This document shows positions 3,394 through 53,157 of a stretch of DNA of 64,000 bases, piece after piece; position 1 is the first letter of the stretch, and the number at the start of each line of letters is the position of its first letter. The stretch covers positions 1 through 64,000 of the forward strand of contig DAOVGR010000014.1 in NCBI GenBank assembly GCA_030672305.1, read 5' to 3'. The notes under the pieces were generated by a model. That model made no database searches. It saw only the letters and a list, made by a program, of their open reading frames with translations, and had not been told where the DNA came from. The stretch comes from Thermoplasmatales archaeon. Its GTDB lineage: Archaea > Thermoplasmatota > E2 > DHVEG-1. A program made the translations under genes and the position numbers.

Positions 3394-6300
3394 ATGAGAG
3401 AACTTATCGATTCTTTTTATAAAGAGCGTAGTATAGTTAACCACCAGATTGCATCATATAATGATTTTCTTGAGCGCAGGTTACAAAGTATTGTTGATAG
3501 TACAATAATTGGTCAAGAAGAAGAAATGGAAAGGGGTTATATCTATCCAGAAATAGAGAATTATAAAATAAAATTTGGTAAAATAACTGTTGGTAAACCA
3601 GAAGTAAAAGAAGCAGATGGTACTGTAAGAAGATTAACCCCAATGGAAGCACGCTTAAGAGATTTAACTTATGAAGCGCCAATATCTTTAGAATTTATCC
3701 CTGTAAAAGATGATGTTGAGTATGATCCTGAGGAAGTAAGAATCGGTGAGCTTCCGATTATGATTAAATCAAAGGCCTGCAATCTTGCAAGGCACAGTAT
3801 TGAAGAGAAAAAAGGTCATGAGCTCTCAGACGAAGAAACAAAAAAAGAACTTCAGCAGATGCAAGAAGATGTTTTAGATCCAGGTGGGTACTTCATTAGT
3901 AATGGTACAGAAAGAGTTCTTATTACAGTTGAAGATCTTGCACCTAATAGAGTTCTTGTTGAAAGATCAAGCAGATATGGTAGAGATATAGAGGTTGCCA
4001 AAGTATTCTCTCAAAAGGAAGGGTATCGTGCTTTAACGGTTGTTGAAAAGAAAAATGACGGCATGCTTATGGTATCTCTTCCAACAACTTATGGGCAGAT
4101 TCCCTTAATGATACTCTTAAGAGCACTTGGAATGGAAGATGATGAAGAAATCGTTGATGTAATAAGTGTAGATCCAAAGATGGAACCTTATGTTCTTGCA
4201 AACATAGAAGAATGCGCTAATGAGTATGGTATAACAACTAAAGAAGACGCTATTGCCTATCTCGGGAAAAAATTTGCTGGAGGCCAAGCAAAAGAGTATC
4301 GTGTTAAAAGAGTCGAGACCTTGATGGATAAGAATCTTTTACCTCACCTTGGTAATGAATCTGTGGATCGTCTTACCAAAGCAATTTTCATGGCGCGTAT
4401 GGGAATGGCGGTATTAGAGCTTGCTCTTGGAAAAAGAGAAGAAGATGATAAGGATCATTATGCAAATAAAAGATTGAAGCTCGCAGGGGACCTTATGGAG
4501 GATCTATTCCGTGTTGCTTTTACAGCTCTCTGTAAGGACCTTAAATATCAAATTGAAAGGATCCATGCAAAAGGAAAAGAAATAAAAATTAGTTCATCAC
4601 TTAGATCAGATGTTTTGAGTCAACGTATCCATCACGCTTTAGCTACAGGTAATTGGGTAGGTGGCAGAGCAGGAATATCGCAACTTCTTGATAGAACAAG
4701 TAATTTAGCAGTTCTCAGTCACTTAAGAAGAGTAACGTCGCCTCTAACTAGATCACAACCTCATTTTGAAGCACGTGATTTACATTCTACACAATGGGGT
4801 AGGCTTTGTCCTAATGAAACTCCCGAAGGGCCCAACTGTGGCCTTGTAAAAAATCTTGCCCTAACTGTCGAAATAGCTGAAGGATTCTCAGAAAAAGAAG
4901 TTGAAAATATGCTTAAGGATTTGGGAATAAGAGATATTACTAAAAAATCAACTGGCGCTAGAGTTTATCTTAATGGAGATCTTATTGGGATGTATCCCGA
5001 TGGCAAAGAATTAGCTCAAAAACTTAGAGAGAGACGAAGAAAAGGACTTCTAAATAACGAGGTAAATGTTGCTTATTACGAAGAAGCAAATGACTTAATC
5101 GTAAATTGTGACTGTGGTAGACTCAGAAGGCCACTTGTAATCGTTGAAAATGGTAAACTATTATTGACAAAGAAATATGTCAGTGATCTCTTAACAGGTA
5201 GAAAGAGATGGGTAGATCTTATAAATGAAGGTATTATGGAATACGTTGATGCTGAGGAAGAAGAAAATACCTTAATTGCACTAAAAGAAGAAGATATTAC
5301 ATCAGATTATACACATATGGAAATGGACCCAATATGCATACTTGGCATAGGAGCATCTCTTGTTCCTTATCCAGAACATAATTCTTCCCCAAGAATTACA
5401 ATGGGTGCGGGAATGGGAAAACAATCCTTAGGTTTTGGAGCAGCAAACTATCGAATAAGACCAGATACTAGAGGACATCTACTACATTATCCTCAAGCAC
5501 AAGTTGTTCAAACTCATCCTGTTAAGTATATTAAATTTACAGAAAGACCCGCAGGTCAGAATCTAGTTGTTGCAGTAGCATCCTATAAGGGATATAATAT
5601 GGAAGATGCATTGGTGATGAACAAGGCTAGTATAGAAAGAGGAATGGGACGTAGTAGTTTTTTTAGAACATATAGCAGTGAAGAAAAAAGATATCCTGGT
5701 GGACAAGAAGATCACTTTGAAGTTCCCGATCCTGACTGTAGGGGTGTCAGAAGCGAGGAAGCATATGTAAATCTTGGTGAAGATGGTCTTATTTCACCAG
5801 AATGTGGTGTAAAAAGCTCAGATGTTCTAATAGGAAAAACCTCTCCACCCAGATTTCTAGAAGAACCAACAGATTTTCTTACACCACAGAAAAGAAGAGA
5901 AACATCTGTAACAGTTCAACATGGTGAGGGAGGAACTGTTGATAAAGTAATGCTTTCTGAATCAGTTAATGGTTCAAGAATGGTAAAGATTACAGTTCGT
6001 GAAGAACGAATTCCTGAATATGGTGACAAATTTGCATCAAAACATGGACAGAAAGGAGTTATCGGACTATTAGTATCTCAGGAAGATATGCTATTTAACG
6101 AGCAAGGAATTACCCCTGATTTAATAATTAATCCACATGCAATTCCAAGTAGAATGACCGTTGGCCATGTTCTTGAAATGATAGGCGGAAAAGTTGGTGC
6201 TTTAAACGGTAGAATTGTTGACGGTACTGCTTTTAGTGGAGAGTCTGAGGAAGTTTTAAGAAAAGCCTTAGTGGAAAATGGATTTAAACATAATGGTAAA

Positions 6301-45212: not shown

Positions 45213-45824
45213 TTGGATAAGATGAGCAGATATGGTAGTGGTTTTAGGGAACCCCCATGGGTAATGGGTTCTCCAAAAGAGGTTATGGACTGGATGGAAG
45301 CTAGTCATCCTGGTGAAAAGGGAAAAGATAAACATAAATATAAAAAAGAATTTTTGAAAAATCTTCATATAAAGTTTGATTTTGATGTAAAAAGAAAAGA
45401 GGTAGATCCTCCCAGTTTTCTTTCGAAGATGATATTTGGAAAAATGATAGAGGAAGACTTTGAATTGCTCTCTACTACGGAATTGATATTAAGAGGACTT
45501 GCAAAAGCAAAGTTTAGAAATACAGCAAAAATAGTTGTTGATGGTAATACACTGTATGAACATCCTGAGAAAAAATCAGATCTTAGAAAAACAATAGAGG
45601 ACATAGGTGAATATTCATCTGAAATAACAAAAGGGAAAAATGTCATAATAACTGCAATATTGGCAGATGTAGAAAAGAGTACTGCTACTATAAAAATAAA
45701 CAAAATCCATAGTCCAAAAGAACATTCAGTTGACATTCAAATAACAGGTAAGATTAGAAAAGAGATCTACCACACATTTCTCAACTACTTAAACGAAAAA
45801 ATAGGTTTAAAAGAAGAATCTTAG
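45213..45824 (+). CDS. conserved hypothetical protein (203 aa)
   Basis: Good ORF with SD-like upstream region; GFREPPWVMGSPKEVMDWMEASHPGE N-terminus; family not recognised. Confidence 0.65.
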   Translation: MDKMSRYGSGFREPPWVMGSPKEVMDWMEASHPGEKGKDKHKYKKEFLKNLHIKFDFDVKRKEVDPPSFLSKMIFGKMIEEDFELLSTTELILRGLAKAKFRNTAKIVVDGNTLYEHPEKKSDLRKTIEDIGEYSSEITKGKNVIITAILADVEKSTATIKINKIHSPKEHSVDIQITGKIRKEIYHTFLNYLNEKIGLKEES

Positions 45825-48738: not shown

Positions 48739-51633
48739 ATGTCAAAAAATCAAAAATCTAAAAATTATGCTGTTACAAAATTACACAAAATTTTAGATTA
48801 TAATTCAAAAAAAGATATTCGTCCTGAAAATGAAAAATATCTTGGATCATTAAGTCAAAGATTAAAAGAAATTTCTGGGGAAGAAATTATTTTAAAGAGG
48901 AAAATAAATAAAGAAATTCTAGAGGATGGTGCTGATACCTTAAAACCAAAAGTAATTGTACATGCAAGAGAGGTAAAGAAAGAGTCTGAACTCCCAGAAA
49001 TAAAAATTGAAGAAAAGAAAAAGAGAGAATTTAGGGGCGAGGATATATTTGAAATCAAAAAAATTAAGATAAAAGAACCAAAATTTATTGAAGTTAAACC
49101 TAAAGCTTCTTCGAAAGAAGAGATTATAGAAATTGGAGATCTAAAAGCGGAGGAAGAGAAATTACTTGAATGGGATTCTATAGAGGTTCATAAAAAAGAG
49201 GAAAAATTAGAAGAACTTCCTGAATTAGAATCTATATCCCAAATAGAGATTAAAAAAACTGAACCAGAACCTTTTGAAAAAATAAAAGAAAAAAAAGAAG
49301 AAAAAAAGGAAATAGATGATAGCACTAATTTTTGTCCTGAATGTGGAACCAAGCTTGATAATTTAGTAGAGGTCTGCTCTAATTGTGGAAAAAAAATAAG
49401 AGATGAGGAAATACCATCATTTATTCCTGTTAAAAAAGTTGAGAAGGAACATATTCCTTCGGAATGGGAACCAATTGAAATTGAAAAACCAAAAGATGAA
49501 AAAATATCTTTTATTGAAAAAGAAGTAAAAATTACTGTTTTTAAAGATTTTAAAAGTATAGATGATGAAATAGCTGCTCTACTTTATAATAATGGAATTA
49601 CTACAATTGATTTATTAAATAAAGCCACTTTAAAGGAATTAACAAAAATTAAGGGCATTAAAAAAAAGGCTGCGAAACGGATTAAAAAAGAACTTAAAAA
49701 AATGAGTAAAAAACCGGAAAAGGAAAAACCAATCGAAATAGAAGTGTTTGAAAAAGAGGATTTTATCGAAGAGGAATTCCCAGTAGATAAAGAGATTGAA
49801 GAAGAATCAGAAGAGTGGTCTTCTAATGCGGAATTAACTTCAAAACCCTCTGTATGGGAACCCATTGAAGATGAATTTAAGGAAACAGAGGAAAAAGAAA
49901 CTGTTATTTTTGAAGAATTTACTGCTGATAAGGAAATTGAAAAATCTCTAATAGATGAGGAGATTAAAGTAGAAGTTTTTAGAAATATAAAAAGTATAGA
50001 TAGTAAAACCGCAGTTCTACTTTTTGATAATGGATATTCCACTGTTGATGCCCTTATTGAAGCTCCAATAAAAGATTTAATAAAAATAGAAGGAATAAAA
50101 AGAAAAACAGTCAAAAAAATCAAAAAAGAACTTGATAAAACCGAATCAACACCAAGTATAATACCCTCTGAAGAGAAACAAGAAAAAACTAAAACTGATA
50201 ATTTTCAAAAAATTAGAGAAGAATTAGATACAACAAAACAAGAATTTAAAACAATAACGAAAGAGTTAAACAAAAAAGAAAAAAACACTCAAAAACTACA
50301 AGAAGAATTAGATGACAAAATAAAGGACCTAGAATCCAAAAAAACTGAATTATACAACAGAGATGAAGAAATAAAACAATTACAAAATCAATCAGAACAA
50401 AGTAAACAAGAACTAGAAATAGGAAGCCAAGAATTAAATAAAAAACAGGAAGAAATAGATCAATTACAAAAAGGACTAGAAGATAAAACATTGGATTTAG
50501 AATCAAAAACCAATGAAATTGATGACAGAGACAAAGAAATAAAACAATTACAAAACCAATTAGAGAAAAGATTACAAGAACTAGAAACAGGAAACTCTGA
50601 ATTAAATAAAAAAGAAGAAGAAATTGAAAAAATAAAACAAGATTTACTTATAAAAACAGAAGAATTAGACGAAAAATATAAAACCATCACAGAACTGCAA
50701 TCAGAACTAACAGATAAACAAAAAGAATTAGAAAGAAAAGATAAAGAAATTAAAATCAAAGCTTTCAAAGATATGATAAGCATAGATGATGAAACAGCTA
50801 TACTACTTTTTGACAATGGAATAACAACAATTGATGCACTTAAAACCACTCCCCAAAAAAGTCTAATAAAAATAAAAGGAATAAAAAGAAAAAAAGCTAA
50901 CCATATTAAAAAAGAACTAGACGAAAAATCTAATAAAGAATCTTTTCAGGAGTTAGAACCAGAAATTGAAAAAAGACCTACAGAATATATCCCAGATAAA
51001 AAAGAAACTACTAAAAAATTAAAGGCAGAAGAGGAAAGATCTGCTGAATATTCTGCTGATGAAAATGAAATTACTAAATATGAGGCTAGGGAAATTGATA
51101 AAAAAATAGCTGATGAATTCTCCCTTGTTGTTATAGATGATGATATTTTTGAAGATATTAAAAGCATAGATGAAAAAACCTCAAAGTTACTTAAAGAAAA
51201 CGGAATCACTACAATTGACGCACTTAAAGTCGCAACTGTAAAAGATTTGACAAAGATTAAGGGGATAAAAAGGAAAATTGCAAAACAAATAAAGAAGGAG
51301 ATTATTAATTCACCTGAAACAGACATAGATAAAAAAGTAGAGGCATCCTCTGAAGGAGAAGAAGAAATATCTGGAGATGAAGAGGAAACGGAATGGGAAT
51401 ATTATGATGAACATTTAATATCTCATTCAACATTGAAAGAATATAAAGGCTTTAGACAGGGGGATTATTCTCTGTATAAAAAAGAAATTGAAACAAAATC
51501 AGGCAAAAAAAGAGCTGTCAGATTTTTCAGCAAAGCTGAGCCTGATGATGCAGAACCTATTGACCTGCCAAATGGATACGAAGTAAAGAAAAATAAAAAG
51601 ACTGGTCTTCCTTATTTAAGAAAGAAAAAGTAG
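48739..51633 (+). CDS. 964-aa Zn-ribbon / four HhH modules / coiled-coil protein of unknown function
   Basis: Single ORF; zinc ribbon CPECGTKLDNLVEVCSNCGKK; four ~58-aa modules of the form (x)FxxxxSIDxxxxxLLxxNGITTIDxLxxAxxKxLxKIxGIKRKxAxxIKKEL; EELDDKIKDLESKKTEL-type coiled coil; distinct basic C-terminus. Confidence 0.85.
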   Translation: MSKNQKSKNYAVTKLHKILDYNSKKDIRPENEKYLGSLSQRLKEISGEEIILKRKINKEILEDGADTLKPKVIVHAREVKKESELPEIKIEEKKKREFRGEDIFEIKKIKIKEPKFIEVKPKASSKEEIIEIGDLKAEEEKLLEWDSIEVHKKEEKLEELPELESISQIEIKKTEPEPFEKIKEKKEEKKEIDDSTNFCPECGTKLDNLVEVCSNCGKKIRDEEIPSFIPVKKVEKEHIPSEWEPIEIEKPKDEKISFIEKEVKITVFKDFKSIDDEIAALLYNNGITTIDLLNKATLKELTKIKGIKKKAAKRIKKELKKMSKKPEKEKPIEIEVFEKEDFIEEEFPVDKEIEEESEEWSSNAELTSKPSVWEPIEDEFKETEEKETVIFEEFTADKEIEKSLIDEEIKVEVFRNIKSIDSKTAVLLFDNGYSTVDALIEAPIKDLIKIEGIKRKTVKKIKKELDKTESTPSIIPSEEKQEKTKTDNFQKIREELDTTKQEFKTITKELNKKEKNTQKLQEELDDKIKDLESKKTELYNRDEEIKQLQNQSEQSKQELEIGSQELNKKQEEIDQLQKGLEDKTLDLESKTNEIDDRDKEIKQLQNQLEKRLQELETGNSELNKKEEEIEKIKQDLLIKTEELDEKYKTITELQSELTDKQKELERKDKEIKIKAFKDMISIDDETAILLFDNGITTIDALKTTPQKSLIKIKGIKRKKANHIKKELDEKSNKESFQELEPEIEKRPTEYIPDKKETTKKLKAEEERSAEYSADENEITKYEAREIDKKIADEFSLVVIDDDIFEDIKSIDEKTSKLLKENGITTIDALKVATVKDLTKIKGIKRKIAKQIKKEIINSPETDIDKKVEASSEGEEEISGDEEETEWEYYDEHLISHSTLKEYKGFRQGDYSLYKKEIETKSGKKRAVRFFSKAEPDDAEPIDLPNGYEVKKNKKTGLPYLRKKK

Positions 51634-51687
51634 TTTTTACCAAGATTTATAAAAGATTTTTATATCCTACTTATTTGTGCGAATAAA

Positions 51688-53157
51688 ATGAGTTGGAATG
51701 GACCATTGAATAAAATTGATAATTATAGATTTGAGATTCCTTCTAGTTATAGAGGTGAACGAAATAACTTGGAGATGAAGACGTCTGCAGTAATTTATGC
51801 TGACGATAAAATGGTCCGCAATATTAGGGGTGATAATGCCCTTGAACAAGCTGCAAATGTCGCAACTCTTCCAGGAATTGTTGGGAAATCTTTAGCAATG
51901 CCAGATATTCATTGGGGTTATGGTTTTCCCATAGGGGGTGTTGCTGCAACCGATGCTGATGAAGGTGTTATTTCGCCTGGCGGAGTTGGTTTTGATATTA
52001 ACTGTGGTGTTAGACTTGTCAGGACAAATTTGCATATAAATGACCTAACTGAAGATAAAATCAAGAGTTTGGTTGATGAGATGTTCAAGAACGTCCCCTC
52101 GGGTCTTGGTTCAAAGGCCAAAATTAGATTTAGTAAAAACGAACTTAATGATGTATTAAGATTAGGGGCTAAATCTCCTGTAGAAAAAGGTTATGGATGG
52201 GAAGAAGATATTAAGTTCTTAGAGGAGAATGGCTGCCTGGATTATGCGGATACCTCGCATGTATCAGAAAAAGCAATTCAAAGAGGAATGTCTCAAGTTG
52301 GATCTCTAGGAGCCGGAAATCATTTTCTTGAAATACAAAAGGTAACAGAAATTTTTAATCCTGATGCCGCAAAAGTTTATGGGATAAACAATATTGGACA
52401 AATAACAATAATGATTCATACTGGTTCTAGAGGTTTTGGCCATCAGGTATGTACAGATCATCTTAGAGTTCTAGAACAAGCCGTTAGAAAGTACAATATC
52501 CGACTTCCTGACAGACAGCTAGCTTGTGCACCAGCAAAATCTATGGAAGGTCAATCATATTTGAAGGCAATGGCATGTGCAGCTAATTTTGCTTGGGCAA
52601 ATAGACAACTAATAGTTCATTGGATTAGGGAGTCCTTCGAAAGAGTTTTAAATAATAGTGCTGAAAATATGGATATGGGAATTGTATACGATGTATGCCA
52701 CAATATCGGAAAACTTGAAGAACATGAAATAGAAGGCAAAAAGAGAATGGTTTATGTCCATCGAAAAGGAGCGACTAGAGCATTTGGACCAGGAAAATCA
52801 GAAATCCCTTCTAAATATCGTGAAATTGGACAACCTGTATTAATTCCAGGAGATATGGGAACAGAAAGTTATCTTCTTCGTGGTACAAAAGAATCAGAGG
52901 AAACATTTGGGTCCACTTGCCATGGTGCAGGACGTGTATTATCAAGGCATCAGGCACTTAAGAAATGGCGTGGTGAGTACATAGTACAAGAACTAAAAAA
53001 CAGAGGTATATATGTTCACCCAGCAAGTTTTAAGGTTGCTGCTGAGGAAGCACCTGGCGCATATAAAGATATTAGAAATGTTGTTGATATAGCTCATGGG
53101 GCAGGTATATCTAAAAAAGTAGTAAAATTCGTTCCCTTAGGAGTTGTAAAAGGATGA
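51688..53157 (+). CDS. rtcB: RNA-splicing ligase RtcB
   Basis: MPDIHWGYGFPIGGVAATD, SPGGVGFDINCGVRLVRT, LGAGNHFLEIQ, HTGSRGFGHQVC, GSTCHGAGRVLSR. Confidence 0.98.
   Translation: MSWNGPLNKIDNYRFEIPSSYRGERNNLEMKTSAVIYADDKMVRNIRGDNALEQAANVATLPGIVGKSLAMPDIHWGYGFPIGGVAATDADEGVISPGGVGFDINCGVRLVRTNLHINDLTEDKIKSLVDEMFKNVPSGLGSKAKIRFSKNELNDVLRLGAKSPVEKGYGWEEDIKFLEENGCLDYADTSHVSEKAIQRGMSQVGSLGAGNHFLEIQKVTEIFNPDAAKVYGINNIGQITIMIHTGSRGFGHQVCTDHLRVLEQAVRKYNIRLPDRQLACAPAKSMEGQSYLKAMACAANFAWANRQLIVHWIRESFERVLNNSAENMDMGIVYDVCHNIGKLEEHEIEGKKRMVYVHRKGATRAFGPGKSEIPSKYREIGQPVLIPGDMGTESYLLRGTKESEETFGSTCHGAGRVLSRHQALKKWRGEYIVQELKNRGIYVHPASFKVAAEEAPGAYKDIRNVVDIAHGAGISKKVVKFVPLGVVKG

Follow-up and report, generated by a model that had tools for sequence, protein, structure and literature searches.

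Architecture of P0001

The window analyzed here is the 64,000-nucleotide stretch at positions 1 to 64,000 of contig DAOVGR010000014.1, from a Thermoplasmatales archaeon. It contains an intact open reading frame of 964 amino acids, P0001, which lies immediately upstream of rtcB. The features of the locus, with the evidence for each, are as follows.

48739..51633, +: whole P0001 open reading frame, 964 aa; intact, with syntenic orthologs
48772..48885, +: N-terminal motif A (residues 12-49), two predicted helices; profile search, homologous motif phylum-wide
48940..48963, +: motif B, LKPKVIVH (residues 68-75; V72 invariant); alignment of relatives
49039..49104, +: motif C, EDIFEIKKIKIKEPKFIEVKPK (residues 101-122); alignment of relatives
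49165..49182, +: W motif 1, LEWDSI (E144 invariant, W145 nearly invariant)
49333..49386, +: zinc ribbon CPECG...CSNC (residues 199-216); Zn_Ribbon_1, present in few relatives
49456..49485, +: W motif 2, PSEWEPIEIE; DNA repeat copy 1 (DNA repeat analysis)
49528..49695, +: helix-hairpin-helix (HhH) module 1 (residues 264-319); Pfam, AlphaFold, Foldseek
49846..49875, +: W motif 3, PSVWEPIEDE; DNA repeat copy 2 (DNA repeat analysis)
49966..50133, +: HhH module 2 (residues 410-465); Pfam, AlphaFold
50203..50760, +: 186-residue heptad helix (residues 489-674), 28-residue periodicity; AlphaFold, DNA repeats, heptad count
50752..50919, +: HhH module 3 (residues 672-727); AlphaFold, groups with module 2 in the module tree
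51139..51303, +: HhH module 4 (residues 801-855); AlphaFold, orthologous to the C-terminal-domain-proximal module of many genera
51391..51408, +: W motif 4, EWEYYD (W886); EWESY in most relatives
51451..51630, +: C-terminal beta domain (CTD) of about 60 aa (residues 905-964); alignment of relatives, AlphaFold
51688..53157, +: rtcB, the next gene downstream, 54 bp away; PF01139, neighbor kept in families f1 to f3

An earlier reading of the DNA (the sequence-only reading) had described a 964-aa frame with a zinc ribbon, four HhH modules, a long helical region and a C-terminal domain, and this description was borne out. In agreement with that reading, no characterized protein with this architecture was found in Pfam, NCBIfam, PHROGs, PADLOC or the PDB. 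A search of one literature library found neither the CTD signature peptide nor HhH together with Thermoplasmata. The AlphaFold model of the whole protein, made with a 16-sequence alignment, contains four helical HhH bundles (pLDDT about 80 to 95) and a beta-type CTD. The acidic linkers are modeled with low confidence and are probably disordered. Charge is divided sharply along the chain: net charge falls as low as -23 in the linkers and is +3 to +9 in the modules and +8 in the CTD.

Assignment of P0001 to known classes of protein was rejected in each case. It is not a RadA/Rad51 recombinase, since the Pfam scan found no RecA-type ATPase core and TIGR02236 scored 43.5 bits against 361; nor is it a NusA, since S1 and KH domains are absent from the same scan. 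An SMC-like protein was likewise rejected: TIGR02168 scored 41.9 bits against 567, over residues 455-672 only, and Walker A/B head domains are lacking. The sole match to a defense system was to LmuB, via the coiled coil.

HhH modules and growth of the array

Pfam HHH_5 matched P0001 in four separate stretches (E = 3.1e-35; 120.9 bits, above the gathering cutoff of 27), placing the four modules where the sequence-only reading had put them. The modules are 54 to 64% identical in pairwise comparison, with z-scores of 22 to 28 against shuffled sequence; a chance origin of the repeats is therefore ruled out (z > 22). At the DNA level they form a four-copy repeat of 214 nt whose copies are 60 to 70% identical.

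A likeness to the RadA/Rad51 N-terminal domain had been proposed, and it holds at the level of fold. Foldseek aligned 47 residues of the module model with the RAD51 N-terminal lobe (8xbw) at 0.9 A (TMt 0.72) and 50 with RadA (1xu4) at 1.1 A; the NusA AR domains matched at 2.0 A. The best Foldseek E value for the modules was 0.003, a weak score of the sort to be expected when short domains sit in a 964-residue query. Modules without an HhH fold would have counted against the sequence-only reading; AlphaFold and Foldseek confirm HhH folds. By sequence, the nearest solved relatives are the NusA acidic-repeat domains (AR1; E about 1e-4), and TIGR01954 matches P0001 four times (E = 2.4e-20).

The hairpins depart from the canonical form. 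The hGhG pattern is not present in both hairpins: the second reads GIKRK, with one G, and the first is degenerate (SIDxxTA) in f1. The canonical hairpin KG[VI]GKKKA was seen only in f2 orthologs. The second hairpins are strongly basic (GIKRKxAKKIKKEL). The consensus given earlier, KIxGIKRKxAxxIKKEL, is close to this, but module 1 has GIKKK, module 2 has V for A, and module 4 ends in EI.

The history of the array can be sketched from a tree of 52 modules together with the DNA repeats. In this tree, modules 1 to 4 of P0001 pair respectively with modules 1 to 4 of its nearest relative (G034, 906 aa), modules 2 and 3 of P0001 share one group, and the CTD-proximal module of many genera forms one group. 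The W motifs at 49456 and 49846 form a 30-nt DNA repeat (80% identity) that precedes modules 1 and 2 at similar distances. The unit duplicated at modules 1 and 2 thus probably included the W-motif linker. HhH modules of the P0001 type also occur elsewhere. A protein whose sequence reads as a type IV pilus/secretion-type ATPase (L065:11131-13086, minus strand; G000:C50) has an N-terminal zinc motif and one C-terminal module of this kind, and similar HhH-tailed frames were seen in two other genomes (G018 and G019).

Heptad helix and zinc ribbon

The sequence-only reading placed a coiled coil between modules 2 and 3. This region is a heptad helix in which one heptad position is 93% hydrophobic, unbroken over 27 heptads, and the next best position only 30%; AlphaFold gives helices at residues 489-617 and 622-674. 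A classical two-stranded coiled coil is likely yet uncertain, because only a single heptad position is consistently hydrophobic. The 56-aa tandem duplication reported within this region reflects the strongest harmonic (lag 56, 41.5% identical) but belongs to a longer periodic array of 28 residues, or 84 nt. The long helix is common to P0001 and G034. Other genera have differing charged helical segments, or none, in its place, with the exception of G020, where a separate long heptad-like stretch was read by eye between two of the modules. The zinc ribbon ahead of module 1 was confirmed as CPECG-x10-CSNC (Zn_Ribbon_1, E = 9e-7); among orthologs the complete ribbon is limited to a few genomes and is usually absent.

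Conserved N-terminal and linear motifs

Residues invariant across the 16 aligned sequences comprise L42, V72 and E144 plus six positions in the CTD; the HhH modules contribute none. Motif A has the consensus LxkILDxP...LxSLxxRL and was modeled, at low pLDDT, as helices at residues 5-19 and 29-45. In families f4 and f5 it carries CxxC...CxxC (L205, L223, L224). A motif A profile built from f1 only was searched against 9,695 open reading frames. It recovered the orthologs and one membrane protein (L058, E = 1.2e-7); its marginal matches (E of 0.02 to 0.34) were only to distant CTD proteins (L219, L233, L171, L170 and L217), and the first chance match came at E = 0.46. The membrane protein (L058:9267-11501, plus strand, G035) is cytochrome b561-like and carries a P0001-type motif A module and a zinc ribbon; neither HhH nor CTD was found in it.

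Among orthologs, motif B is kept as LkPkV and motif C has the consensus lyEIEKVev.PEFIEVkPk. The W-motif peptides (LEWDSI, SEWEPI, SVWEPI and TEWEYY) had been overlooked by the sequence-only reading, and LPEWEPV peptides recur among orthologs as a constant part of the protein.

A small C-terminal domain with free-standing paralogs

The C-terminal domain that had gone unrecognized was searched alone. Pfam, NCBIfam and PHROG gave no match, and no sequence relative was found in the PDB. The CTD model is confident (mean pLDDT 89.6, about 95 across the core; pTM 0.72) and has four main strands. Nor did a fold search of the PDB yield a match: the lowest E was 0.79, and none of the 50 entries listed exceeded a TM of 0.35. 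A resemblance to the T4 gp34 tail fiber, weak in both sequence (E = 0.37) and fold (19 columns), was taken as chance. The BFVD fold match is one uncharacterized siphovirus protein (TM 0.59, probability 1.0, E = 0.001).

The domain also occurs as free proteins of about 61 aa that are 41 to 48% identical to the P0001 C terminus and share with it the LY, FFSK, P and N-x-x-T-G-x-P positions. Counting all forms, most genomes have 2 to 10 copies. In 14 of the 55 genomes with a located radA, representing six families, a free CTD paralog follows radA directly, on the same strand and 50 to 130 bp away (G000, G009, G023, G026, G027, G032, G048, G049, G051, G052, G114, G166, G185 and G229; positions compared by eye, plus neighbor clusters). 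In P0001's genome this is a 61-aa protein downstream of radA (G000:C21:31875-33054; L003, L191). The radA-adjacent protein is possibly a RadA-linked small protein. A second free paralog lies at 14 loci between divergent dph5 and an Rpr2/Rpp21-S19e-PDCD5-L39e/L31e-eIF6 operon (among them L104, L105, L108, L115, L117 and L132, around position 5000); Rpr2 and S19e were confirmed by Pfam, and the names dph5, PDCD5, L39e/L31e and eIF6 come from reading the sequences.

The CTD is joined to HhH in at least three arrangements: the P0001 family, L214/L220 (CTD, HHH_5) and L219 (motif A, CTD, DUF4332/HHH_5). It is also fused to multi-TM membrane proteins; two such proteins (L174:2264-3178 and L225:1069-2184) carry one or two CTDs and, by eye, a C-terminal DUF2188-like domain. 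A search of a plasmid collection found no CTD. Viral contigs gave one distant CTD and phages one (MW202692). The Caudoviricetes homologs are L204:5956-6162 (MW202692) and L203:4995-5198, and the MW202692 gene lies 2 to 5 kb from genes for DNA ligase, polynucleotide kinase and a nucleotidyltransferase.

P0001 belongs to an old scaffold family with constant ends

We define here a Thermoplasmatota family, the motif A-CTD scaffold family, by motif A and CTD in one protein and by position in the tgtA/HMGR/pyrB/rtcB block; P0001 has both. All 46 sampled genomes of P0001's taxonomic family gave matches. The ortholog, with its surroundings, sits between divergent pyrB-pyrI and rtcB-PAC2-PPS-aspS in f1, f3 (L170, L171) and f2 (L231, L233, L235). 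The gene at the syntenic position between pyrB and rtcB, compared across at least 30 related genomes, has variable helical spacers and 0 to 5 HhH modules, where the count of 5 (G031) is summed over two reading frames and counts of 0 for L056 and L063 are distrusted, as stretches of both loci are masked (N). Outside f1, the f3 ortholog has 280 aa and two CTDs, that of f4 and f5 has 201 to 299 aa with a tgtA-like gene nearby (L205, L223, L224), and that of f31 has 558 to 584 aa, is very acidic and adjoins pyrB (L216, L217); all three lack HhH. One genome (G088, L219) separately joins motif A, CTD and a C-terminal DUF4332/HHH_5 region.

Since the ends are constant and the modules number from 0 to 5 across orthologs, the core of the family consists of motif A and the CTD, to which HhH modules were added later in the order. 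Sequence comparison shows P0001 to be an enlarged, lineage-specific member of an old Thermoplasmatota scaffold family, and its HhH modules and coiled coil to be recent, variable insertions between old conserved ends that have since multiplied. The architecture-based proposal is partly supported: the RadA/Rad51 likeness stands, but the HhH array and coiled coil, as variable insertions, are not the center of the protein. Among the versions of this scaffold, which is widespread in uncultured Thermoplasmatota and had not been described before, P0001 has the longest arms.

Through the CTD, named relatives were traced to MAGs of uncultured Thermoplasmata/Thermoplasmatota or "Euryarchaeota," among them "Thermoplasmatales archaeon SG8-52-3" and "SM1-50"; we take these relatives to belong to the Marine Benthic Group D/Thermoprofundales lineage (compare PMC6461988). 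The G032 (CP070836) ortholog is split into parts about 590 kb apart (L042:8519-10711 and L060:7893-8477). Its 5' part adjoins pyrB and its 3' part adjoins rtcB, with apparent transposase-derived sequence before the 3' part; this is either an IS-mediated rearrangement or a MAG misassembly. Also in the block, a 203-aa frame at 45213-45824 (plus strand) of the window is kept in several relatives and has no Pfam match.

A candidate nucleic-acid-binding scaffold

From its charge pattern, fold and neighborhoods, we tentatively favor P0001 as a flexible, multivalent nucleic-acid-binding scaffold. The HhH folds, the basic modules and CTD, the canonical hairpin of f2 orthologs, the CTD-HhH combinations, and the neighbors radA, Rpr2/Rpp21-S19e and rtcB all point this way, and nucleic-acid binding or tethering by P0001 is plausible. 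The location beside rtcB and the CTD paralogs beside radA and the RNase P gene Rpp21 allow either DNA or RNA as the ligand. There is precedent for an HhH array that wraps DNA in topoisomerase V (PMC9489208). Against this reading, the first hairpin of f1 modules is degenerate, NusA AR2 and Rad51-lobe domains (8xbw) also bind proteins, and both CTD and motif A occur on membrane proteins. The neighborhoods also count for less, as the nadC-aspS block is conserved in its entirety. Orthologs without HhH persist, so HhH binding is dispensable for the basic function.

In P0001's family, HhH modules of the Rad51-NTD/NusA-AR type were inserted between the constant ends and multiplied, in places with a W-motif linker, and variable helical spacers were added, in P0001 the 186-residue heptad helix between modules 2 and 3. 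In the proposed scaffold, the basic hairpins and CTD would bind the nucleic-acid backbone weakly and independently of sequence. The acidic disordered linkers would space the modules and permit simultaneous contact with several sites, and the heptad helix may dimerize the protein and hold two pairs of sites at a set distance. Protein partners might be recruited by the N-terminal and W motifs. P0001 would then act as a flexible, multivalent tether at which nucleic acid is concentrated together with enzymes of processing or repair. More speculatively, the CTD could be a small beta domain, not described before, that binds nucleic acid and is tied to radA, RNase P and rtcB, with P0001 its multivalent form in a condensate-like hub for DNA/RNA repair or processing; we regard this as somewhat unlikely.

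The main rival to the nucleic-acid scaffold is a protein-protein hub, in which the HhH modules dock partners (recombinase, RNA polymerase or RtcB), the W and N-terminal motifs serve as SLiMs, and the CTD is a beta domain that binds protein. In favor of a hub, SuhB and alpha-CTD are bound by NusA AR2, a domain of the same HhH type (PMC6614801), and AR1 is the nearest solved sequence; outside the CTD, invariance is highest in short linear motifs rather than in HhH; and membrane proteins also carry the CTD and motif A. However, the hairpins are strongly basic, unlike the NusA acidic repeats, and CTD paralogs cluster with nucleic-acid enzymes. We consider a hub possible, though somewhat unlikely.

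A dedicated RtcB accessory, that is, an RNA-binding scaffold delivering broken or intron-containing RNA to the RtcB ligase, is improbable. In its favor, the gene directly precedes rtcB in three of the order's families, a different CTD-HhH protein (L214) is convergent with archease-rtcB in G166, and archease-rtcB operons reflect function (PMC3973293). The neighborhood evidence is weakened, however, because the whole nadC-aspS block is conserved. In two relatives (L041, L045) 1.5 to 7 kb separates the P0001 ortholog from rtcB, and a TATA-like TTTATAAA, read by eye at 51647-51654, could provide rtcB with a separate promoter. The small f4/f5 ortholog lies near tgtA, and rtcB was not found in the stretch examined (L205, L223, L224). 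Archease is encoded elsewhere in P0001's genome, which rules out P0001 as its replacement. A specific role of P0001 with RtcB is therefore possible but weakly supported. P0001's genome also has a second, divergent rtcB-family gene (G000:C47:51277-52377).

Least probable of all is a chromosome-organizing DNA bridger, in which a dimeric coiled coil would be flanked on either side by two or four HhH modules at SMC-like spacing: only P0001 and its sister G034 have the architecture, the weak SMC match arises from the coiled coil, the ATPase head is absent, and most orthologs carry at most one module and nothing comparable to the coiled coil, so bridging is not the family's function and at most a local addition.

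The analysis brings to light an unnamed protein family that almost every sampled genome of an archaeal lineage carries; its beta domain is unannotated, and the PDB gives no detectable solved homolog for it by sequence or fold. It also shows that HhH modules of the nucleic-acid type were gained and multiplied on a genus-level timescale inside a disordered scaffold. Should the CTD bind nucleic acid, recombination (radA), tRNA/RNA processing (Rpp21, rtcB) and membrane proteins would be connected in these archaea by a single small domain.

Comparison with known systems

Each P0001 module shares the HHH_5-type HhH fold of the RadA/Rad51 N-terminal lobe. P0001 differs in having no ATPase core, in carrying tandem copies on long acidic linkers and in the degenerate first hairpin of f1, and its genome encodes its own RadA as a separate gene. 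The NusA acidic repeats AR1/AR2 are the closest solved domains in sequence, with the fourfold TIGR01954 match; P0001, in contrast, lacks S1 and KH, has a basic rather than acidic module surface, and is archaeal, in a nonorthologous context. Topoisomerase V of Methanopyrus, with 12 tandem (HhH)2 domains, is likewise an archaeal protein with an HhH array (PMC9489208), whereas P0001 has no topoisomerase or AP-lyase domain, its modules are widely spaced by disorder and helix, and module number varies between genera. The free 61-aa proteins correspond to the C-terminal domain of P0001 but are stand-alone, undescribed, and found beside radA or Rpp21-S19e rather than rtcB. The HhH array is built of modules already known in kind; what is new is the CTD and the scaffold family.
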